Virus record (IMG/VR): IMGVR_UViG_3300017971_000311
Coordinates: 1-27,966 of that record
Source: a virus
Length of the DNA stretch: 27,966 nt
Strand: one strand, 5' to 3'
The notes beneath the pieces were generated by a model, which had not been told where the DNA came from, did no database searches, and was given only the letters and a program-made list of their open reading frames with translations. The translations under genes and the position numbers were made by a program. Below are positions 4,874 through 15,316 of the stretch, in pieces (within the stretch, counting starts at the first letter, position 1; the number at the start of each line of letters is the position of its first letter).

Positions 4874-5113
4874 ATGCCAAGGAAAGCAGCAAAAGAAGTG
4901 GTGATGATTCCGGTACGTGGTGCCAAGCTGGAAGTGACTGAGGGCACTCTTACGGGCGACTCCGGGGACATGTACGTGCTGGAGGCCATCACGAAGAGTG
5001 GTCGGGGGCGCGGGGTGAAGTATCACAAATCCACCTACTACATCCCGAAGCATCTCATTTCCTACTACAAGACGAAGCCAGAGGAGCTCGACTCCGACGA
5101 CGTTCCAGAGGAT
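4874..5113 (+). other. Folded N-terminal domain of the AT-hook protein
   Basis: Residues 1-80 lack the low-complexity composition of the tail and look like an independent domain, with alternating hydrophobics and an aromatic cluster (STYYIPKHLISYYK). I do not recognise the fold. It may give target or partner specificity to the generic AT-hook tail. Confidence 0.4.
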
Positions 5114-5455
5114 GTCAAGGCTTCAACTACCACCGCAAAAAAGGCCACCAAAACCACCCCCACCGCCAAGCGCAAGCCTGGTCGTCCGAAGAAGACTGAA
5201 GAGGCGGAGGCAGCCCCAAAGAAGCGTGGTCGCCCACCGAAGAAGGATAAGGCGGAGGCCGCTCCCAAGAAGAAGCGCGGTCGCCCACCGAAGAAAGACA
5301 AGGCAGAAGCAGCTCCCAAGAAGCGGGGCCGTCCTCCTAAGAAGAAGACCGAAGCAGCTCCCAAGAAGAAGCGCGGTCGCCCACCGAAGAAAAAAGCGGC
5401 AGCTTCTAAGCCTAGATCGGGCCGCGCTGAAGCGCTCTTCGAGGACGATTTCTAG
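4874..5455 (+). CDS. AT-hook, histone H1-like DNA-binding protein, 193 aa
   Basis: Strong Shine-Dalgarno (AAAGGAGG) before the ATG. Residues 1-80 form a compact folded-looking domain (beta-rich, KYHKSTYYIPKHLISYY). The rest is a Lys/Ala/Pro tail with five AT-hook cores (GRP at 103-105, 119-121, 136-138, 152-154, 168-170), four of the form K-R-G-R-P-P-K-K, in a repeating unit of about 16-17 residues. The last residues are acidic (ALFEDDF). AT-hooks bind the minor groove of A/T-rich DNA; such tails occur in eukaryotic HMGA proteins and myxobacterial CarD, and in some bacterial H1-like proteins. It probably coats or organises phage or host DNA. The repeat units are also similar at the DNA level, consistent with expansion by internal duplication. 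Confidence 0.85.
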   Translation: MPRKAAKEVVMIPVRGAKLEVTEGTLTGDSGDMYVLEAITKSGRGRGVKYHKSTYYIPKHLISYYKTKPEELDSDDVPEDVKASTTTAKKATKTTPTAKRKPGRPKKTEEAEAAPKKRGRPPKKDKAEAAPKKKRGRPPKKDKAEAAPKKRGRPPKKKTEAAPKKKRGRPPKKKAAASKPRSGRAEALFEDDF

Positions 5456-6554: not shown

Positions 6555-7370
6555 ATGTCCGGTTCTATCACAGGACGAATTGCTGCACGGTTCAGCGACA
6601 AAGTCAACCGTAGGGTCGCTAGCACTCGTAGCGGACGCTGGGATCTGAAGCTGGCCGACTACAAAGTGATCAGCGAAAAAGAGGCCCGTATTATGGTGGC
6701 CTACGCCCCTGAGATGGGCGCACCCAAGCGTAGCCAGGTGGATTCCTGGACCACGACTTCGCTCAATGGACATCTGCGGCTGTCTTTGGAGACGTTGCGT
6801 CATTACCCCGACCTGTGTGTCGTGACTGCGGTGGTGGCCCGAAACGAGCGCCTGCGCCCCTTTAACGCGAGCCCACAGAATCCCAGCGTTCCCAAGGGAA
6901 TGATCGCCGTGGCTAGCACACGCTTCATGGATGAGGAAAAAGTCATTTGGGAAGTGATGAGCAACAAGAACGGCGAGCGTTACCTCAGCCGGGCCACCAA
7001 AGATGATCTGGATGAGATTCTGCGTGAGCGCCAGACCCGCGAGCGCACTGCTTCCATCCACCATCGTCTACGCCTGGCCGATCTGGTCACCGCCGGCATC
7101 CATAACCTGGAGCCAGGGGACAAGGTGCGCTTTTCCTACGAAGGCATCTTGCAGCAAGGCGAGGTTTCCAAGGTCGGCAAGGACAACGTTACCATCAAAG
7201 CCAACGGTACCTCCGTGACAGTGGATCGTCTGGCTGTTGTGGACGTGTACGAGAAATCTCCCAAATCGCAAGCCGAGCAGGACAAGTTCCTGAAGGATTT
7301 CTTTGAGCGCGCTTACGGTGACAAGGAGTTCGCCGACAAGCTCGTCGATACCGGCTCCGGCAAGAAATAG
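6555..7370 (+). CDS. Unrecognised phage protein with SH3-like segment, 271 aa
   Basis: Strong AGGAGAAGG before the ATG. The N-terminal 30 residues are basic. Residues ~35-150 are a mixed domain that I do not recognise. Residues ~186-232 form a small beta-barrel-like segment (LEPGDKVRFSYEGILQQGEV) of the SH3/KOW type. The C-terminus is a charged helix ending in a Gly/Lys tail. It precedes the cluster of proteins with the shared I-R-x-x-G-x-x-Y peptide but does not carry that peptide itself. G/C-rich third positions suggest a well-expressed gene; a structural or virion-associated role is possible but unproven. Confidence 0.75.
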   Translation: MSGSITGRIAARFSDKVNRRVASTRSGRWDLKLADYKVISEKEARIMVAYAPEMGAPKRSQVDSWTTTSLNGHLRLSLETLRHYPDLCVVTAVVARNERLRPFNASPQNPSVPKGMIAVASTRFMDEEKVIWEVMSNKNGERYLSRATKDDLDEILRERQTRERTASIHHRLRLADLVTAGIHNLEPGDKVRFSYEGILQQGEVSKVGKDNVTIKANGTSVTVDRLAVVDVYEKSPKSQAEQDKFLKDFFERAYGDKEFADKLVDTGSGKK

Positions 7371-7396: not shown

Positions 7397-7978
7397 ATGA
7401 AAAACCCGAAGTTTATTCGAGTGCATGGCACCCTATACCGTCGGCGTTCTGCTGAAGTTCCCACGGTCATTCGGGTGGGTGGTTACTTCTACAAGCTGTC
7501 GCAGCATAGTGAGGAGCGTGCCAAGGCTTTAGACATGATTGAGGACTTTCAGCAGGCTCTGCAGACCGCCGTCGAATCGGTTCCAGAAGGGGATCAACAG
7601 GCGGATAAGGTACGTGAGCTCTTCAAGAAGATCAACGTTTCTATGGGCAACGTGGCCGCGCGTGTAGCCAATCACGACGATGAGCAAGCCAAAGAGTTCT
7701 GGCGCCGCACCGGAAACGTCCTGCTGCAGGCGATGCCGCTTATGAAGAGGACATTCACCGACGTTGCCGCGCGGTGGTTTGGGAACCTGGCGATCCGCCT
7801 GGACGAGACGTTGGAAGAGCTTTTCCAAGCTGTCGAGTCTGCCGAGCTAGCCAAAGAAGAGGACGCTGAGCCGGAACCGAAGAAGCAGATGCACGCCAAC
7901 TTCGAGCGGCCGAAGCAACGGAAGCACCCGCCGTTCATTCAGGTTAGCGGCAACCTCTACCGACTCAAAGCTGAGTAG
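7397..7978 (+). CDS. Shared-peptide protein, three copies, 193 aa
   Basis: AAGGGGAT precedes the ATG. The protein has three copies of the cluster's peptide: residues 4-15 (PKFIRVHGTLYR), 22-33 (PTVIRVGGYFYK) and the C-terminal end from 178 (PPFIQVSGNLYR). Between them is an all-helical region of about 140 residues. Similar copies occur in eight other proteins between here and 15316. The peptide reads like a short beta-hairpin (I-R-V, turn at G, L-Y-R). I know of no assigned function. Having copies at both ends argues against a simple cleaved N-terminal signal and suggests a small docking module. Confidence 0.8.
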   Translation: MKNPKFIRVHGTLYRRRSAEVPTVIRVGGYFYKLSQHSEERAKALDMIEDFQQALQTAVESVPEGDQQADKVRELFKKINVSMGNVAARVANHDDEQAKEFWRRTGNVLLQAMPLMKRTFTDVAARWFGNLAIRLDETLEELFQAVESAELAKEEDAEPEPKKQMHANFERPKQRKHPPFIQVSGNLYRLKAE

Positions 7979-7981
7979 GTC

Positions 7982-9292
7982 ATGCCTGAGAAGCCGGCTG
8001 CATACCACGTGACGCTCACTGCGGTGCGTCACTATAAGCCTGGATCCGGGCCGCCAGAGAAGCCAGACATTTGGAACTTCTCTCAGATGGTTTGGTCGAC
8101 CAAAGGCTACTCTGGTGCCCTCGTGGAAATGCTCAACAAGTTCTTCGAGTGGTACCCGGATAATGGTGTTATCTTGCCCAACGGCAAGCGTGATAACGTC
8201 GTGCTCACTCCCGAAAACCGCGGACGTGCTTCTGGCTACTTAAAAGGTAAGCCGCAGCACGAGAGCGGAAACTACCGGCTGGAAAATGATGATGCGATCC
8301 TGCATGTCAACAAAATGCGTGCATTGTCAGGAGAAACTCCGCAACGGTTGACTCCAAAGAGCGATAAGGAGTACTCCGACGCTCTGCAGAAAAACATCCA
8401 GTCCATAGATCCCTACTACGAATCGGTGGTGCAGATGCCTTCTCCAATACGCGGAAGCAGCGAAGTCCCCAAATACATCAAGTTGAACGGGTGTCTTTAC
8501 CGGCAGGCAGCCGAGCTTTTCGAGGATGCAACTCTCGAAGACAGCATTGGGGTATTCAATGAGCAAATGGAGGAGGTGACCAAGGAATTGGTCCAAATCT
8601 CCGAGATGCTTATGGATGCTGGTGAGAAGCTGCGTGAGGGCGATACAACATTTCCAGAGGTGATCCAAGAGGCAGCTGTCCGCGTGTACAAGATTCTCAT
8701 GGAAGAGGTGCTTGTTGCACGAGATATGGCTCGCTCTATTAGAGCCAAAATGCCGAAGAAGCAAATGGTGGCCAAGACACTTCAGTACAAGGGCGCCACC
8801 TATGAGCTCGTTGCTCAACCTCACAAAGGAAAGCCTGATGTGAGAGAGGAGCAACAAGAAGAGTTGAGCACAGGTGAGCAGGTAGCCGATTCCCACCTTC
8901 GTGCGGTTATCTCAGATGCGCGTGCAGTGCAAAAAAGAGCACATGAGCTTATGCACTCACTGCACAACATGGGGAAGCAGGCGCGGATTTGTATGGAGCG
9001 TGATGGGGAAATTTCCCCTGAGCATGTTGACGTCATGCAGTCCGACAAGCGGATCGAAGAGCTGTACGCTCCGATGCGTTCCATGGAGAAATCCAACCGG
9101 CAGCTCAATTACACCGTAGACGCCGCGATCTCTTCTATGAAGGGCGTTGTTCACCAGCTGGACGCCATGGTAGATGAGTGGCATGCTGCGCGTGATACCA
9201 TGAATGCTCCAAACACTTCCCGAGAGCTCACGGAGCCGATGCTCCTTTCCGACAACCCGTCCGCGGTGTTTGATGAGCTTGGTGGTCTGTAG
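7982..9292 (+). CDS. Shared-peptide protein, two copies, 436 aa
   Basis: ATG 3 nt after the previous stop, so probably translationally coupled. Residues 1-150 form an unrecognised domain (HVTLTAVRHYKPGSG, then WNFSQMVWSTKGYSGALVEM). The cluster peptide follows at 163-174 (PKYIKLNGCLYR), then a helical segment, then a second copy at 264-275 (AKTLQYKGATYE), then a long helical C-terminus. The alternation of peptide and helical segment matches the architecture of its neighbours. Function unknown; virion-packaged or assembly protein is one possibility from the clustering. Confidence 0.8.
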   Translation: MPEKPAAYHVTLTAVRHYKPGSGPPEKPDIWNFSQMVWSTKGYSGALVEMLNKFFEWYPDNGVILPNGKRDNVVLTPENRGRASGYLKGKPQHESGNYRLENDDAILHVNKMRALSGETPQRLTPKSDKEYSDALQKNIQSIDPYYESVVQMPSPIRGSSEVPKYIKLNGCLYRQAAELFEDATLEDSIGVFNEQMEEVTKELVQISEMLMDAGEKLREGDTTFPEVIQEAAVRVYKILMEEVLVARDMARSIRAKMPKKQMVAKTLQYKGATYELVAQPHKGKPDVREEQQEELSTGEQVADSHLRAVISDARAVQKRAHELMHSLHNMGKQARICMERDGEISPEHVDVMQSDKRIEELYAPMRSMEKSNRQLNYTVDAAISSMKGVVHQLDAMVDEWHAARDTMNAPNTSRELTEPMLLSDNPSAVFDELGGL

Positions 9293-9302
9293 GGTTACTG
9301 TG

Positions 9303-9485
9303 ATGCACAAACAATTCACCAATCCATTTAATAGGCGTATCGAGGGTGCGATGCGTCGACGCATGGCGAAGGGTACTGAGCGGACCACCAAAGAAGATGC
9401 CATCGCAAAGCGCATCCTTGGGGACGAAATCCGCCGAAGGATTGCTGAGTATAAGGAACGGTTTGGCGAGGACCCGGATCTATAG
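9303..9485 (+). CDS. Small basic helical protein, 60 aa
   Basis: ATG 10 nt after the preceding stop; an in-frame upstream extension would overlap the previous gene and is not needed. The protein is highly charged (MRRRMAKGTERTTKEDAIAK, then a second amphipathic helix ending FGEDPDL). It is followed at once by a strong Shine-Dalgarno for the next small gene, consistent with an operon. No family recognised. Confidence 0.6.
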   Translation: MHKQFTNPFNRRIEGAMRRRMAKGTERTTKEDAIAKRILGDEIRRRIAEYKERFGEDPDL

Positions 9486-9493
9486 GAGGTTCC

Positions 9494-9706
9494 ATGCGCC
9501 GTGTCAGACTGAGTAGTCGTGGGGCAATACGTCACGTGAACTATGGTCCAGGGACCGCGGGTACCGGACTAGCCCCTTCTCCGGGTCGCGTAGTGCGCAT
9601 CATTCCTGGTATTCCAGCAAACAATCGAGGCGTACGGCGCCCTTCGCATCCGGTTAACTATTTACCCTTCCATCCTTTCCGTACACATACCCCGGGCTAT
9701 TACTAG
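9494..9706 (+). CDS. Small basic, Pro/Gly/Arg-rich protein, 70 aa
   Basis: A near-perfect Shine-Dalgarno (AGGAGGT, 9484-9490) sits 3 nt before the ATG, which is closer than usual but in a clean operon position. The product is rich in Arg, Pro, Gly and His with no obvious secondary structure (GPGTAGTGLAPSPGRVVRI, ending THTPGYY). It could be a disordered nucleic-acid-binding or virion protein. The next gene starts 3 nt after the stop. Confidence 0.55.
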   Translation: MRRVRLSSRGAIRHVNYGPGTAGTGLAPSPGRVVRIIPGIPANNRGVRRPSHPVNYLPFHPFRTHTPGYY

Positions 9707-9708
9707 TC

Positions 9709-11931
9709 ATGCCCAAATATCTGTTCCATACGACCTCATTACCAGGGTTGCTCTCTATTATGGGCAGCCACTCTGTGCAATCAGAGGCGCCATTTGTATC
9801 TTTTTCTGAGATACCTCATGTGGGCGACATCAGCCACAATGATGTCGTCATTGTCTTCAAGCACTCCAAACTAGCTCCGCAGCTCCTGCAGGTGGACTAC
9901 ACAGAAGACTGGTACAACAAGCATCCCGAACAGGCAGCCTACGTTGCTGGTGAGGGGTGGTTGGAGCAGTTCATCTATCCAGAAGAGTGCATCGACAAAG
10001 ATGGGTTTGAGGACGAAGAGTGCATGGAGGAGGCGTACAAGGAGGGGGAGATTTCTTCCTTCCTATTTAAAAGCGATGAGCGTGAGTGGGTGTCTAAGGA
10101 AGAAGACCATCCAGTAACCTTCGACCCAGAGGCGGTGGACCGGATCTTGGTGGTGGATGAACGTCAGGTGGACGCGGTGAAGGGCGCTCTGGAGGATGCC
10201 AACTTTGATCTTCCTGTGGATGTTCGGCAGGCGGGGGTACGCGTAGCATCGCCATCCCTTCCTTCTGGGGCAGGATTCCTCTTCACCGATGGTATTCGGA
10301 TCCTACTCCTCAAACGCAGCATCGACAACGATGAAGCAGGCACGTGGGGTATTCCTGGCGGTGGTGTTTATAATGGCGAAACCCCACAGGATGGGGCCCT
10401 GCGTGAATGCATGGAGGAGATTGGTTCCGTACCACCGCACAGGATTCTGGATTGGTTTGTCTTCCAGTGCGATGATCCGCACTTCGGTACCTTCGAGTAC
10501 ACCACTTTTCTTGCGCAGGTAGAGCCAGCTTTTGTGGAGGGGTTCCTACCTGTGCTGGATCATGAGAGCACAGGGTGGGGTTGGTACGATGAAGAGGGGG
10601 TCAAAGCGCTCACTCTGCACCCCGGCCTTGACACGTTATTTGAGCACACCACCCCATTTTTCCAGCATATTGACAACCGCACCGCGCAGACAGAAGAAGA
10701 GCTGCAGAAGCTGCCCATCGACGTGCTGGACCGCATGGCTTTTGGGGTAGTGGAGGGCGTCCAAGAACTTCCTGTAGGCGATATCAAGATCAAGTACGCT
10801 GACGACTACAACAACGCTGTGGCAGAGATTGAAGAGGGCTTGTGGGAAGGGAACGAGTCAGCGCTGGAGGAGCCGGTAGAGGTTTCTTTGGAGCGGGGCA
10901 TCTATTGGCTGGAAGACGGTCACCATCGCTATGTAATGGCTAGAGGGTTGGGACGCGATACCATTTTGGCTGATCTGTCCATCAAGGACAATCCCGTGAG
11001 AGCGCTCATGCGACGGAATGCTATCGAGGAATCTGTGCAGTTACCACGTACCATTCGTTACCAGGGAGCAACGTATCAGGCTGTCACCGCAGGCCTTAGC
11101 ACCGTATTATTGAACAGGGCTGTATCGGATGCTCAGAAGAAGCAGGAGCTGCGTCCGTACGTCGACCTGTTCATGAAGCAGTTAGGCCGAAAGGAATCCT
11201 ACAAAAAGAATGCGGATAAAATCCTGTCTGCAGTAGAGGCCCTTTTAATGGCACCCTTCGCTCCGGCTGCAGAGTCTTCGGTGCATAGCGTGAAGGAATC
11301 AGTCAAGGCTTATGATCATCTGCAAAACCAAGTGAATGCCCTAGAGGCGTCCATGGGGGACGATCCCCAAGAGGCGATCAGTAAGATACAGAAGCTATTC
11401 GACGACTTCTACGCTGAGACGCTCCCCAAAGTCCCAGCTTGGCATAAGGCATTTGGCGAGACCGCCAAGGATTTACTTATCGAACCAGGACTGCTCCCAG
11501 CCTCCGCTCGGATGTTGTACTACCTGAAAAAGGCTTTAAAGGAAGCAGAGCGGCTCAAGCTCCTGAGTGATGAGGGAGAAGAGGTCGACAAAGATGAAGT
11601 CCGCGAAGCCTTGGATGAGATTCTGCGTGAGCCTGTTTGGGTGAAGGAAAAGCAGAAAGAAGAAGCTCGGCGTAAAAAAGAGCAAGCTCCAGCGAAAGTG
11701 CAGCAGGAGCTGGAGGGGTTGTTCCCAACAAAGGAGAAGGGAAAAGAGGCCCCGGTACCGCTAACGAAGCGGAAAGAGGAAGCACCCGTCCCGCTTGTTC
11801 GCCGTAAGAAAACTCCTCCTGAGCCAGTTCCTGCTAAACAGGAGCGCGTGCCCGAACCACAACCGGTAGCAGAGGGTGGTGGTTTCCTTAAGCTCGACCC
11901 AGCAATTGTTAGGAGGCTGGTTAATGTCTAG
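9709..11931 (+). CDS. ADP-ribosyltransferase-like / Nudix / ParB-like fusion with shared peptide, 740 aa
   Basis: Residues ~1-155 open with KYLFHTTSLPGLLSIMGS and VSFSEIP and end with EREW...VDRILVVD, the order of His, Ser and Glu landmarks seen in ADP-ribosyltransferase-like domains (moderate confidence). Residues ~185-300 are a Nudix hydrolase with a complete box: G218-x5-E224-x7-R232-E233-x2-E236-E237-x-G239; Nudix enzymes cleave nucleoside diphosphate-X compounds such as ADP-ribose or NAD. Residues ~395-432 (YWLEDGHHRYVMARGLG) match the D-G-x-H-R core of ParB/sulfiredoxin-like domains. The cluster peptide follows at 446-457 (PRTIRYQGATYQ). The rest is helical, then a Lys/Pro tail with two APVPL(T/V)(K/R)RK repeats. 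The start is the ATG 3 nt after the previous gene, with a weak ribosome site. Confidence 0.8.
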   Translation: MPKYLFHTTSLPGLLSIMGSHSVQSEAPFVSFSEIPHVGDISHNDVVIVFKHSKLAPQLLQVDYTEDWYNKHPEQAAYVAGEGWLEQFIYPEECIDKDGFEDEECMEEAYKEGEISSFLFKSDEREWVSKEEDHPVTFDPEAVDRILVVDERQVDAVKGALEDANFDLPVDVRQAGVRVASPSLPSGAGFLFTDGIRILLLKRSIDNDEAGTWGIPGGGVYNGETPQDGALRECMEEIGSVPPHRILDWFVFQCDDPHFGTFEYTTFLAQVEPAFVEGFLPVLDHESTGWGWYDEEGVKALTLHPGLDTLFEHTTPFFQHIDNRTAQTEEELQKLPIDVLDRMAFGVVEGVQELPVGDIKIKYADDYNNAVAEIEEGLWEGNESALEEPVEVSLERGIYWLEDGHHRYVMARGLGRDTILADLSIKDNPVRALMRRNAIEESVQLPRTIRYQGATYQAVTAGLSTVLLNRAVSDAQKKQELRPYVDLFMKQLGRKESYKKNADKILSAVEALLMAPFAPAAESSVHSVKESVKAYDHLQNQVNALEASMGDDPQEAISKIQKLFDDFYAETLPKVPAWHKAFGETAKDLLIEPGLLPASARMLYYLKKALKEAERLKLLSDEGEEVDKDEVREALDEILREPVWVKEKQKEEARRKKEQAPAKVQQELEGLFPTKEKGKEAPVPLTKRKEEAPVPLVRRKKTPPEPVPAKQERVPEPQPVAEGGGFLKLDPAIVRRLVNV

Positions 11932-12382
11932 CCCCAAGAAAATACGATTCCGCGGCGCCATTTATGAGGCAGTTGAACTTCCCCTCGATCTCCTTCATGC
12001 TGAACTTGTTGAGGCAGCTGGTGCCGCTCCGAGAAGCAAAGAGGAATGGCAGGAATTTGCCAGCGACGTCTTCGATTTCTACAAGAATCAGCTAAGCGAA
12101 ATGGGCGCCCTACGCGAGCTGGAAGATGGTATGGGTTCCTTGCGCGAGCTTCTTGCTTCTGCAAAGAAAGATTTCCGAAAAGCAAAGCACAGCAAGAACG
12201 TTCTGGACATCTTGCAGGCGCTTGTATCCGCGCGCTACCTAGCTGGAACAACTTCACAGTCATCGAGTTTGGTTAAAGGACTAAAGTCCATAAAGAAATG
12301 GGCCAAGCAGCACGAGAAGCTCAAGAAGAAGATGGAGAAGATGCGTCAGCCCAAGCAGAAAATCAAGAAGTGGTTCAAGTAG
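11924..12382 (+). CDS. Shared-peptide protein, 152 aa
   Basis: ATG at 11924 overlaps the end of the fusion gene and has AGGAGG (11911-11916) 7 nt upstream; the longer in-frame reading has no such site. The peptide is at residues 4-15 (PKKIRFRGAIYE). The remainder is helical, with a very basic C-terminal coiled segment (KKMEKMRQPKQKIKKWFK). Function unknown. It is one of the simplest members of the set: N-terminal peptide plus a helical body. Confidence 0.75.
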   Translation: MSSPKKIRFRGAIYEAVELPLDLLHAELVEAAGAAPRSKEEWQEFASDVFDFYKNQLSEMGALRELEDGMGSLRELLASAKKDFRKAKHSKNVLDILQALVSARYLAGTTSQSSSLVKGLKSIKKWAKQHEKLKKKMEKMRQPKQKIKKWFK

Positions 12383-12390
12383 GTGCCGCG

Positions 12391-13020
12391 ATGTCGATGA
12401 AGAACCCCACGAAACTGCGCTATATGGGTGCTACCTACGTGCGAGCGGATGCTTTGGACGTAGGGGAGCTGAGCTCGAAAATAGAAGAGACCAAGGATTA
12501 TGGTGTGGGGGAGTCAACAATTTATCCTCCACCCGCTGCAGGTAAGAAAGAGCAGGACCGCATAGCAGCCGCGCTGGATAAGTACCCAGACATCACCAAG
12601 ATGACAAACCCGGTGGTGCAGCGTATGCGCCAAGAGCTCTCGGACATGCAGCGCCTGGCTGCTGAGTCCGCGTCAATTTTGACGAAGCTGTCACGGTTTA
12701 TAGCTACAGCAGAGGCCGAAGATGTGGACATGCCAAAGAATCCAGAGGAGTCCCCTTTTCGGACATTTGCTGCCTTCCCAGGGGTCATCGATGCTGTCAC
12801 CTTGGGTGGGGAGCTCCCCGAATACCTGAGCGAGCTTGGGTTTGACATCAACACCCTAGCGTCCAAATCCAAGGCGCTACGTGAGCTCGGGCAGAAGGTG
12901 GCCGTAGACGCCCAGAACGCGATCACCGGCGCACTGAAGGAAACAAAGGAACCCAAAGACAAAGAGGAGACGGGTGGCCCAGAGCGCACACTTGAGATGC
13001 CGGAACCAGCAGCTGCTTGA
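12391..13020 (+). CDS. Shared-peptide protein, 209 aa
   Basis: ATG at 12391, 8 nt after the preceding stop, with AGGTG 6 nt upstream. The peptide is at residues 6-17 (PTKLRYMGATYV), again at the N-terminus. The body is mostly helical with a Pro/Gly-containing centre, and the tail (KETKEPKDKEETGG) is acidic and disordered. It is the last clear gene of the + strand cluster before the convergent region. Function unknown. Confidence 0.75.
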   Translation: MSMKNPTKLRYMGATYVRADALDVGELSSKIEETKDYGVGESTIYPPPAAGKKEQDRIAAALDKYPDITKMTNPVVQRMRQELSDMQRLAAESASILTKLSRFIATAEAEDVDMPKNPEESPFRTFAAFPGVIDAVTLGGELPEYLSELGFDINTLASKSKALRELGQKVAVDAQNAITGALKETKEPKDKEETGGPERTLEMPEPAAA

Positions 13021-13065
13021 CATTTGGCTGCTGTGATGTACAAATACTCCCCGAGGTTAGAAACC

Positions 13066-13209
13066 ATGCACGAGACACGCGAACATAAGTGGATGCCGTT
13101 GGAGGCCCAAGGAGCCTCAACGCCCTCGTGTCTCCCAGGGATTGAGGTCTCCATGACCGCGAATCTGTTCAGTGGTTATGCACTCGATCCCAAAGAGCCT
13201 GGCGGCTAA
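13066..13209 (+). CDS. Possible small protein, 47 aa
   Basis: Starts at an ATG with GAGG about 9 nt upstream (an ATG at 13036 is in frame but lacks a ribosome site) and stops just before the intrinsic terminator at 13237. The peptide is neutral, with one Cys and no recognised motif. The position between gene and terminator fits a real last gene of the operon, but the evidence is thin and it may be non-coding 3' sequence. Confidence 0.3.
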   Translation: MHETREHKWMPLEAQGASTPSCLPGIEVSMTANLFSGYALDPKEPGG

Positions 13210-13236
13210 CCTTGTAACCCGAGAGGATCACACGAG

Positions 13237-13273
13237 AAAGGCCGCCCGGCAACGAAGCTAGGCGGCCTTTTTT
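13237..13273 (+). terminator. Rho-independent terminator of the + strand cluster
   Basis: A 10-bp stem, AAAGGCCGCC (13237-13246) with GGCGGCCTTT (13261-13270), 14-nt loop, followed by a T run to 13273. It is a strong intrinsic terminator ending the + strand transcripts before the convergent minus-strand operon. In the opposite direction the stem is followed by only three T, so it should mainly work rightward. Confidence 0.85.
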
Positions 13274-13469
13274 ATTGCGCGAGCTCCCATAGACCGTAGG
13301 GACACAGGTTGGAGTTGGAGTAGCAGGTCCTACGGTTTGGGGTGAGACTAGACCCAGTTTCGGATCTCATCTGATTCTGCGGCTTTTCAATAGCAAGCTC
13401 CCGCATGCCATCGTGGGGCCGCTCCTTTCAGTCTTTGACAACTGAATAGCAAACGATGAAAACGCCTCC
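13274..13469. other. Non-coding convergent region with inverted repeats
   Basis: No convincing gene. It contains ACCGTAGG-G-AC and GTCCTACGGT (about 13292-13338), a 10-bp stem with one bulged G, and TTCAGT/ACTGAA around 13428-13446. A TTGACA at 13435 has no matching -10 at 16-18 bp. The stems could belong to a small RNA or be protein-binding sites. Confidence 0.4.
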
Positions 13470-13526
13470 CAGGTGGGGGAGGGCAGACGTAGTCCGCGTC
13501 AATTATTACACGTCCTCCCCCACCTG
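13470..13526 (-). terminator. 13-bp perfect inverted repeat at operon convergence
   Basis: CAGGTGGGGGAGG (13470-13482) and CCTCCCCCACCTG (13514-13526) are perfect complements with a 31-nt loop. The right arm begins 7 bp beyond the stop of the minus-strand gene at 13533. On the + strand the stem is followed by ATATTTTTA; on the minus strand a T4 run appears about 8 nt later. It probably acts as a bidirectional terminator, though the long loop is unusual and leaves a protein site possible. Confidence 0.55.
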
Positions 13527-13532
13527 ATATTT

Positions 13533-13853
13533 TTACTTGTAGAGTCCTTGCCTGCGGAGATCGTTGGCGAAGTAAGTGACAAGAGTTTGGAAGTGTCTGT
13601 AGTTGGCTTCAAGCTCGGAATTGTTTTCTTTTGAGCTCAAAGCTTCGCGGGCCACATCCGCCGCGATCTGAAAGAGATCGAAGAGCCTGATAAGCGGGGA
13701 CTGGTCTATTTCTTCCTGCGGCACGTACTCAAGCAGGTCTTCTACTGCATCCTGCATGCGTTCCACACCAGCGGCCATCTGGTCTCTATCAGACGCACAC
13801 CTGTACAGGTGGCCTTGCACCCTGATGAACTTAGGTGGTTGTTTCTTCTTCAT
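13533..13853 (-). CDS. Shared-peptide protein, 106 aa (minus strand)
   Basis: Start at the ATG at 13853 because AAGG lies 8 nt upstream of it; a GTG at 13862 would sit directly on that site. The peptide is at residues 7-18 (PKFIRVQGHLYR) after a Lys-rich start (MKKKQP). The rest is a helical bundle-like body (AAGVERMQDAVEDLLEYV). Last gene of a four-gene minus-strand operon, followed by the inverted repeat at 13470-13526. The helical body is similar in character to the 193-aa protein at 7397, with which it also shares the closest version of the peptide. Confidence 0.75.
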   Translation of the reverse strand: MKKKQPPKFIRVQGHLYRCASDRDQMAAGVERMQDAVEDLLEYVPQEEIDQSPLIRLFDLFQIAADVAREALSSKENNSELEANYRHFQTLVTYFANDLRRQGLYK

Positions 13854-13867
13854 CACGCGCACCTTTT

Positions 13868-14209
13868 CTATTCTGGGCCGCCGGGCTGCGGAATGTATTC
13901 ATGGAGAGGGTATAGACGGTCGAGGAGAGCTATCCAGCCAGTACGCTCGGTACCATATTGGACGCCATAGTAAATCTTGTCGAGCATCTCTACAAAATCC
14001 CTGAAGCGCTTTTTGTCTTCAGGTTTCTCGTAACCATACTCTTCGAGCAGCTTCACTATTTCCTGTAGAGCAGTGTGGGCTTCTGTGAGATGCTTCTCGA
14101 AGCGCTCGCGCGGCTCATAAACCGCTTTTTGGAACGCTTTTGTTTTCTCATCGTACTGAGCTTGTACGTATATGCGACCGCTGAAGCGGATCTTTTTTGG
14201 TGCGCCCAT
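13868..14209 (-). CDS. Shared-peptide protein, 113 aa (minus strand)
   Basis: ATG with CGGAG 8 nt upstream. The peptide is at residues 4-15 (PKKIRFSGRIYV), almost identical in its first half to the + strand protein at 11924 (PKKIRF). The body is charged and helical (ERFEKHLTEAHTALQEIVKLL), ending in a Pro/Gly tail. It is separated from the following gene by only 14 nt. Function unknown. Confidence 0.75.
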   Translation of the reverse strand: MGAPKKIRFSGRIYVQAQYDEKTKAFQKAVYEPRERFEKHLTEAHTALQEIVKLLEEYGYEKPEDKKRFRDFVEMLDKIYYGVQYGTERTGWIALLDRLYPLHEYIPQPGGPE

Positions 14210-14230
14210 GTTATATACTCCGGTTTCTTA

Positions 14231-14315
14231 GGTAGCGTACCCAAGCGGCTTACGGGGCCCGCCTGCTAAGCGGGTGCACGGAAACGTGCCGTGGGTTCGA
14301 ATCCCACCGCTACCT
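14231..14315 (+). tRNA. tRNA-Ser(GCT)
   Basis: Full class II cloverleaf: acceptor GGTAGCG/CGCTACC, anticodon stem CCCGC/GCGGG around loop CTGCTAA, long variable arm with a GAAA loop, T-arm GTGGG-TTCGAAT-CCCAC. No CCA is encoded. It lies on the + strand between two minus-strand genes, abutting the stop of one. Discriminator base is T, whereas bacterial tRNA-Ser normally has G. Confidence 0.93.
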
Positions 14316-14807
14316 CTACTTTGCAGCTTTAAGCATGCGATCTGCCATACCGTCAAAAGCCTTCGCCACACCCATAGCGTTCGCGTAGTCCTTCTCCAAT
14401 CCAAGTCGCTTTAGGAATGGAGCAAGGGCTCTGATGTCCATAGCGATGTCTGCAGCAGCCTGCATCGCCTGCTCAGCATTCATCTGTGCTTTTTTGTACA
14501 CCTTTCCGGCGATACGTACTTCATCAGAATCGTCCAGGCGCTTGTACAGAACGCCTCCCACCTTGATCTGCTTCGGAGGAGCTTCTGGCTGCACGAGCTT
14601 GTACAAGTGACCACCCATCTTGATCTTCTTCGGAGGAGGCGTGGATGCCTTAGTTTCTTTTCCCTTGGTGGATAGAGCATCCATAGTCTTCTCGACGGTG
14701 CCCTCTGGATCTTTGGCGGTTTCAGGATCGTCCTTCTTTTGCTTGGCTTCCCACTCTTTGACTTCTTTGCCCACTTCAGATTTCTTGTTGTCTTTTTCCT
14801 TTGCCAT
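14316..14807 (-). CDS. Shared-peptide protein with three tandem copies, 163 aa (minus strand)
   Basis: GAGG 6 nt before the ATG. Residues 1-55 are Lys/Glu-rich and probably disordered. Three consecutive copies of the cluster peptide follow: 59-70 (PKKIKMGGHLYK), 78-89 (PKQIKVGGVLYK) and 94-105 (SDEVRIAGKVYK), spaced about 16-19 residues apart, then a short helical domain. The tandem arrangement shows that the peptide is a self-contained repeat unit and not part of a larger fold. Its stop codon directly abuts the 3' end of tRNA-Ser(GCT) on the other strand. Function unknown. Confidence 0.8.
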   Translation of the reverse strand: MAKEKDNKKSEVGKEVKEWEAKQKKDDPETAKDPEGTVEKTMDALSTKGKETKASTPPPKKIKMGGHLYKLVQPEAPPKQIKVGGVLYKRLDDSDEVRIAGKVYKKAQMNAEQAMQAAADIAMDIRALAPFLKRLGLEKDYANAMGVAKAFDGMADRMLKAAK

Positions 14808-14839
14808 GAGGTGCCTCGAATATTAGTTGTGGGTGAGAA

Positions 14840-15316
14840 CTACTCACCAGGGGTTTCTTCGGTCTCGCAGAGGGATTTCAAGCTGTCCGCGAGTGTGCAG
14901 ATTTGGTCGACTGTGATTCCAGCGCCGCCCAAAACCATTTTGATTACTTCAGCAGCGTCGGGAGGTATATCGGTGGCAGCGAACTTTTCTTTCCACAGCT
15001 GCGGGTAGTCCACGCCAAACCGTGCGGCAAGCTCCTCCGCTTTTGCCCGCGTGTCTTTTAGAGGATCGCCGATAATCCCAGGCATTGGGGTTGTCTTGCT
15101 AGGCAGCGCGGACTTAGCCCTGTACACCCATTGAAGGTTTGCGTAGTCCTCTTTCTCCAGCTGCCCGTCGTCTCTTTTTCTTTCCATCGCACGGGCCAGG
15201 TTGTGCAATAGGACACCAAGCACACGCTTTTCGAGGTCGAATCTGCTAGGTTCTTGTGGATCCGCCTGTACATACAGCTGGCCTTTGTAGCGAATACGAG
15301 AAGGTGGTTTGGTCAT
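14840..15316 (-). CDS. Shared-peptide protein, 158 aa (minus strand)
   Basis: Start at the ATG at 15316, with GAGGG 6 nt upstream; a longer in-frame reading would run into tRNA-Ser(CGA) sequence. The peptide is at residues 5-16 (PSRIRYKGQLYV). The body is helical with a Pro-rich middle (LPSKTTPMPGIIGDP). It is the first gene of the minus-strand operon; the 62 bp between it and the divergent tRNA at 15379 must hold its promoter, but I cannot identify clear -35/-10 boxes. Confidence 0.75.
   Translation of the reverse strand: MTKPPSRIRYKGQLYVQADPQEPSRFDLEKRVLGVLLHNLARAMERKRDDGQLEKEDYANLQWVYRAKSALPSKTTPMPGIIGDPLKDTRAKAEELAARFGVDYPQLWKEKFAATDIPPDAAEVIKMVLGGAGITVDQICTLADSLKSLCETEETPGE

Follow-up and report, generated by a model that had tools for sequence, protein, structure and literature searches.

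A short repeated peptide on dissimilar jumbo-phage proteins as a candidate address tag for loading the phage head

The 27,966-nt stretch of viral DNA analysed here (the window) covers positions 1 to 27,966 of the 60-kb record IMGVR_UViG_3300017971_000311, and nine of its predicted proteins, encoded on both strands and otherwise dissimilar, share a short peptide that we call the tag. We located 14 copies of the tag on these nine carriers (C1 to C9), with three copies each in C1 and C8, two in C2, and one each in C3, C4, C5, C6, C7 and C9. The tag is an old signal conserved at the protein level and not a set of recent repeats. We propose that it is a modular address tag in the form of a hairpin, by which effectors are loaded into the phage head for ejection, similar in role to the capsid targeting sequence (CTS) of phage T4 but unrelated to it, and on our analysis this proposal has about an even chance of being right.

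The unit is about 12 residues long and reads as a hydrophobic residue, Arg or Lys, an aromatic residue or Val, any residue, a turn Gly, any residue, often Leu, a Tyr, and then often Arg, Lys or Val. Among 22 aligned copies the Tyr is kept in all and the turn Gly in 21, a conservation that is partly the result of selection since the copies were chosen for resemblance to the motif. On the plus strand, C1 (7397..7978, 193 residues) has two N-terminal tags at residues 2-19 (7400..7453) and 20-37 (7454..7507), and a third that forms its final 18 residues (7922..7975). Both tags of C2 (7982..9292, 436 residues) are internal, at residues 161-178 (8462..8515) and 262-279 (8765..8818). C3 (9709..11931, 740 residues) consists of a NUDIX domain (residues 189-310), a ParB-like domain (about 329-435), the tag (444-461; 11038..11091) and a region without a family. 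N-terminal tags are found in C4 (11924..12382, 152 residues; tag at residues 2-19, 11927..11980) and C5 (12391..13020, 209 residues; tag at 4-21, 12400..12453) and, on the minus strand, in C6 (13533..13853, 106 residues; tag at 5-22, 13788..13841), C7 (13868..14209, 113 residues; tag at 2-19, 14153..14206) and C9 (14840..15316, 158 residues; tag at 3-20, 15257..15310). The remaining minus-strand carrier, C8 (14316..14807, 163 residues), has three tandem tags at residues 57-74 (14586..14639), 76-93 (14529..14582) and 92-109 (14481..14534), followed by a part modelled as helical. The original prediction had placed the unit usually within the first 18 residues, which is true of the proteins, six of nine having a copy that starts at residue 2-5, and fails for the copies, only 6 of 14 of which start there; the others are internal, C-terminal or tandem. 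C3 is the only one of the nine carriers with a Pfam match above cutoff (NUDIX, E value 7.4e-16), and its ParB-like domain is a weak PHROG match. C9 has no Pfam family at E ≤ 1, the other carriers have no family above cutoff, and the tag unit itself corresponds to no known family in Pfam, PHROG, NCBIfam or the PDB.

To represent the tag we used an 18-position hidden Markov model (HMM) profile built from the 14 window copies, with six-frame open reading frames (ORFs) as targets. In the 60-kb record the profile matched exactly the nine carrier ORFs (E 1.9e-21 to 1.9e-5), and the next-best match (E 0.034) is, by eye, the start of a helix-turn-helix-like protein. A near-identical phage is represented by a 260,067-base contig, IMGVR_UViG_3300017963_000190 (G001), in which 277 of the 279 100-base blocks of the window are present exactly and C1, C3 and C8 are 100% identical. 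There the profile recovered the 14 window copies and a 15th (58660-58704, minus strand; E 0.0018) at the N-terminus of C10, a protein of 113 residues, bringing the total to 15 copies on 10 proteins; the remaining matches (E 0.12 and 0.45) are noise. When each carrier was left out in turn, nine of the ten outranked the best non-copy of their own run, the exception being C3 (E 0.17 vs 0.07 for the best non-copy). Several copies are weak when held out: in C1 the first copy has a per-copy E of 0.0042 and the second and third have 2.5 and 1.4, the two in C2 have 1.5 and 1.3, and the third in C8, the weakest of all, has about 1300. C1, C2 and C8 are distinguished by having several copies each. All 14 copies and nine start positions of the original prediction were nevertheless found on the strands it gave. 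We also counted a regular expression for the motif, written after the copies had been seen, which matched 15 times in the 346 called ORFs of G001 (shuffle mean 0.36, maximum 3 in 300 shuffles) and 13 times in the 20 kb around the cluster (shuffle mean 0.04), with no match in 295 ORFs of four other phages (shuffle mean 0.36).

Recent DNA duplication as the source of the copies is ruled out by their synonymous codons. Between copies, the same codon is used at 160 of 422 identical residues, where 165.6 would be expected from codon usage, in agreement with the earlier statement that the underlying DNA is not a simple repeat. Codon sharing at chance level leaves no trace of recent duplication and indicates that the unit is held by selection on the protein. 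The carriers also look unrelated outside the tag, as had been claimed: with the tags masked, the best of 45 pairs reached E 0.024 (C1 with C3, composition correction off), which we do not regard as convincing homology. Given this and the presence of tags on unrelated folds, we reject in the main the idea that the tag is part of one ordinary domain. Of the two outcomes that would have spoken against a shared signal, a motif frequency at chance level and full-length homology among the carriers, neither was found.

The original prediction had also suggested a hairpin shape, and AlphaFold2 drew this shape in two models, both with low to moderate confidence. C8 was modelled alone with a mean predicted local distance difference test score (pLDDT) of 67 and about 53-67 over its first two tags; these two tags form two-stranded hairpins (residues 61-64/67-70 and 81-83/86-88), and the third is mostly in a helix. 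C6, used as the query with an alignment of ten N-terminal tags, gave a mean pLDDT of 74, with the block 11-20 at 87, and shows two strands (9-12 and 15-18), the Gly at the turn between them, and then a helix. The tag is therefore modelled, at low to moderate confidence, as what is probably a tiny beta-hairpin. Across the 22 copies, no second strongly conserved position besides the hairpin itself was seen within 9 residues of the turn Gly, and within the same distance there is no conserved acidic column such as a T4-like cut site would show.

The same tag occurs with other cargo in a relative of the window phage. A scan with C3 identified the contig IMGVR_UViG_3300017971_000344 (53,582 bases; G002), in which gene order follows that of the window phage from sigma-factor and UvsX-like genes to the homologue of the untagged protein encoded at 6555..7370 (plus strand), with protein identities of 24-43%. 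In the window this untagged gene lies directly before the carriers, and its G002 homologue (32% identity) likewise lies directly before a carrier, one with a degenerate tag. Beyond the shared block the two phages differ, yet both carry the tag. In G002 it is present in eight copies on six proteins (D1 to D6), and the regular expression matches five times (shuffle mean 0.10). D1 has the degenerate tag, at its N-terminus. D2 has an internal tag at about residue 243 and a DUF5662 domain (PF18907, 76.8 bits, cutoff 27), D3 an N-terminal tag and an ADP-ribosyltransferase (ART)-like stretch seen by eye only, with no significant family match, and D4 an N-terminal tag and an ART-PolyVal domain (PF18760, 34.2 bits, cutoff 31.2). 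D5 (184 residues) is tagged near its C-terminus, at about residue 171, and belongs to HAD_SAK_1 (PF10307, 71 bits, cutoff 25.6). The largest, D6 (1,129 residues), has three tags at about residues 2, 355 and 937 and no significant family match; an HEMGHH (HExxH) motif and an ART-like stretch were noted in it by eye only. The tags of D2, D3 and D4 were found by the profile built from window copies alone, and that of D5 is weak (E 0.049 and 0.031 with profiles trained without D5). For several pairs of G001 and G002 carriers the aligned part is the tag itself, and the best alignment outside it, C7 with D1, has E 0.008 against a seven-protein database. Judged by these comparisons, the tagged cargo is different in the two related phages, with no convincing carrier homologue outside the tag.

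The location of the G002 carriers points towards the head. PHROG profiles identify a terminase (phrog_17415, 1e-96), a portal protein (phrog_16240, 5e-82) and a head maturation protease (phrog_18299, 1.6e-42) in G002, none of which is above cutoff in Pfam. Five of the six carriers, D2 to D6, are encoded between the portal and the protease genes, which are about 16 kb apart. Since the related portal and protease genes of Xanthomonas phage PhiXhv-15 are adjacent, the G002 interval looks like an inserted cargo island. In G001 the portal-like ORF (258863-259741) stops 0.3 kb short of the end of the contig and encodes 292 residues with 36% identity to the G002 portal (E 1e-30); this short ORF could reflect a sequence error or a broken gene. 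An earlier candidate for the portal, L011:15166-17277, proved to be wrong.

Untagged homologues of tagged regions indicate that the tag is modular. A G002 protein that stands alone and has no tag shares 64% identity with the ParB-like domain of C3. The peptidase-like region 511-931 of D6 has a homologue in the huge phage LR745208 that is a protein by itself, and one of the D6 tags starts just beyond this region, at about residue 937. The HAD homologues of LR745208 and LR756502 cover no more than residues 2-148 of the 184 in D5, and a DUF5662 homologue in phage SP-15 aligns over residues 72-210 of D2, in each case short of the tag. No tag was found by profile in LR745208, LR756502 or SP-15. With untagged homologues for four tagged regions, one and the same domain appears to have gained the tag in some phages and to lack it in others. 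LR745208 has a recurrent motif of its own: in two 50-kb stretches (L072 and L073), (V/I/L)-A-x-(R/K)-(Y/F/W/H)-(L/V/I/M) occurs 8 times in 113 ORFs (shuffle mean 1.3, maximum 6 in 300 shuffles), with an expression that was chosen after examples had been seen. It frequently lies close to a protein terminus, as it does at the N-terminus of the protein homologous to a tagged region of G002, and the V-A-x-R-(Y/F/H)-L form may be another phage's address tag. One protein of this phage (L073:27348-27899) begins MPADVDRYVQEGKDQGMPEDKAWAIAWSRFCRK, and starts of this kind occur on other huge-phage proteins as well.

Searches of other records indicate that the tag is specific. Across 18 other phage records totalling 5.0 Mb, the profile from the window copies gave no match at E ≤ 10; in the same run the positive controls yielded 17 rows for G001 (2 of them noise) and 3 for G002. 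A wider profile that included the G002 copies found nothing at E ≤ 1 in 10 of those 18 records, in a run without a positive control, and nothing at E ≤ 10 in SP-15 or LR756502, in a run where both positive controls matched. Against 177,635 distinct PDB sequences the profile matched one chain at E ≤ 10 (E 1.5). Negatives from genome scans are soft, as a scan with PF18760 missed the G002 domain that hmmscan detected. Scanning with the neighbour protein returned only G001 and G002 as relatives among viral contigs and no relative in the bacterial and archaeal genome collection. Three DNA patterns for the N-terminal tag, which cover only part of the motif variation, yielded one carrier contig, G002, and one of them had no match in 84,980 bacterial and archaeal genomes. 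Three matches of one pattern were rejected as a single T4-like protein with the motif internal, and the sole match of another outside G002 is in a 17-residue frame. A further lead from the pattern that matched the T4-like protein, a protein at L025 that lies, by eye, between portal-like and capsid-like genes and might have been a scaffold, was also set aside. Its family comprises 19 loci, of which the N-termini of 16 were examined and the partial matches L045, L048 and L049 were left out; the motif is present only in L025 itself (= L031), with a vague remnant in L032. As it is not conserved in the family, we do not count it as support. A repeated hairpin tag of this kind was not described in the open-access literature we searched, a body of work that excludes most subscription papers.

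Several known systems invite comparison. An N-terminal CTS of about 10 residues takes the internal proteins of T4 into the prohead and can encapsidate virtually any protein (PMC7697877); the internal proteins are injected, and one of them inhibits a host restriction system (PMC9391042). T4 Alt, an ART, is packaged as well (PMC5512222) and carries a CTS-like propeptide (PMC5694885). The tag resembles the CTS as described in these sources in being a short peptide common to several small proteins and an ART (PMC7697877, PMC5694885, PMC9391042), and in being placed on several otherwise different proteins, here 15 copies on 10 proteins in G001, where the CTS addresses its cargo to the head. The CTS is N-terminal, whereas fewer than half of the window copies are. 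The head protease removes the CTS; G002 encodes such a protease, but the tag has no conserved acidic column within nine residues of its turn. Unlike the CTS, the tag is modelled as a hairpin, and its profile has no match at E ≤ 10 in T4 (NC_000866). The hairpin may act in the manner of a CTS, but its position, its sequence and the missing acidic column set it apart from one. Phage polyvalent proteins have likewise been proposed to be packaged (Iyer et al. 2017, PMC5512222). Tagged proteins recall their repertoire through ART and ParB-like domains and a metallopeptidase domain recognised by motif alone; the matches above cutoff are ART-PolyVal in D4 and, in the window, only NUDIX. In contrast to polyvalent proteins, many carriers are small with one recognised domain or none, most consist of one part only, C3 combining a significant NUDIX with a weak ParB-like match, and the text of PMC5512222 bearing on these proteins does not describe a shared short address peptide. 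Coding alongside virion or portal genes, a trait of phage polyvalent proteins, is seen for five of the six G002 carriers and not for the window-phage cluster, which lies about 49 kb before the portal-like ORF. The ejection proteins of SPN3US and phiKZ have head-targeting propeptides that are mostly longer than 100 residues, cleaved and suggested to be CTS-like, head targeting being what the SPN3US authors infer for these long regions (PMC5694885). The tag shares with them a proposed head-targeting role on jumbo-phage proteins and differs from the propeptides reported there in its length of about 12-18 residues, its repetition and the lack of any sign of cleavage.

We hypothesize that the unit is a modular two-stranded beta-hairpin that serves as an address tag in this jumbo-phage lineage, and that a receptor inside the growing head, most likely the core or scaffold or the portal, with the shell protein as a further candidate, would recognise it and so bring the tagged proteins into the prohead by co-assembly. 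The packaged cargo would be ejected into the next host along with the DNA and act early on host RNA, nucleotides or proteins, and the copy number of the tag may tune loading. The original prediction had named capsid packaging among several functions, and the head context and cargo domains of G002 lend this independent support: the portal-protease placement and enzyme-like, injected-effector-type cargo suggest a head-loading label, from which we infer packaging. The proposal also draws on the specificity of the tag, with 15 copies in G001 and none in the 18 other records, on its modularity, on the differing cargo under one tag, on the chance-level codons of an old signal, and on the precedents of the T4 CTS and the polyvalent proteins. 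A number of observations weigh against it. The main weakness is that the cluster in the window phage is not beside head genes; it lies between replication genes and a tRNA-rich stretch and not in a head module. Neither a terminase nor a head protease was found in G001, an absence that is soft because the same run also missed the portal-like ORF. In eight of the nine carriers in the window no enzyme domain can be recognised, there is no acidic column to signal a T4-like cut site, internal and C-terminal copies depart from the N-terminal placing of the CTS, and phages with related portals (PaBG, NCTB, GR7B, JA11 and PhiXhv-15) lack the tag.

The position of the window cluster, next to replication and recombination genes, would fit better if the unit were a docking hairpin through which tagged proteins bind one hub of a non-virion assembly, be it a replication, host-takeover or transcription complex or a phage-built compartment. 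N-terminal, internal, C-terminal and tandem copies would also suit an interaction motif that gains avidity by number. The cargo island between the G002 portal and protease genes argues against this, and we consider it unlikely, though the most serious of the alternatives. The nuclear import that had been suggested gained no support; for it, or for a phage-built compartment, BLAST found no match to the phiKZ gp54 shell in G001 or G002 and no PhuZ homologue, which carries little weight as the shell search also missed its intended positive control, SPN3US, which we take to be a member of the nucleus-forming group. Alternatively, the hairpin could sit beside a cut site as a processing or boundary element, with the head maturation protease or another protease separating multi-domain precursors. 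The last tag of D6, directly after a region that stands alone in LR745208, and the C3 tag, which comes after the ParB-like domain, are where such an element would be expected. Many carriers, however, are small and undivided and have their tag at one terminus, so that a cut would free little else, and within nine residues of the turn Gly no strongly conserved position is seen outside the hairpin; we regard this reading as improbable.

Slightly less probable still is that the carriers are far-diverged paralogues of an ancestral helical protein in which the hairpin is the best-conserved part. The weak masked matches of C1 with C3 and of C7 with D1 are what this would predict, but masked carriers show no convincing homology, and tags at the N-terminus, middle and C-terminus of unrelated folds (NUDIX/ParB-like, ART, HAD and DUF5662) are difficult to derive from one ancestor. 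Lastly, short Gly-turn hairpins are common in proteins generally, and the unit could be a generic structural cap or hairpin linker spread by recombination, for which a receptor is not needed. We think this very unlikely given how strictly the Tyr and turn Gly are kept, even if partly through selection of copies, and given the absence of the tag from the 18 phage records and of one DNA pattern from the bacterial and archaeal genomes.

Other features of the region were noted in passing. An AAA+ ATPase, recognised by eye, is encoded directly downstream of C10 in G001 (56155-57810, minus strand); BCS1-type translocases have been suggested for head-packaged proteins in jumbo phages (PMC7824862). 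At 4874-5455 the window encodes a protein with tandem KKRGRPPKK-type (AT-hook-like) repeats, and G002 has, by eye, a comparable basic protein in the corresponding position, for which BLAST listed no match. Between 14231 and 27820 there are 18 transfer RNA (tRNA) genes in 13.6 kb among small genes, including four for tRNA-Ser and two for tRNA-Tyr.

Little is understood of how jumbo phages select the proteins that go into their heads. If head loading is the function of the tag, a short readable peptide would allow the effectors that a phage injects to be listed from its sequence alone, small domainless proteins among them, and foreign proteins might be brought into phage heads by a second sequence-based route. 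More tentatively, and with less than even confidence, we speculate that a position-independent, repeatable hairpin is a cargo code of the head, under which every protein with at least one hairpin would be loaded and ejected and effectors would be swapped freely while one receptor is kept, and that, for the same effector domains, other huge phages may use other codes.

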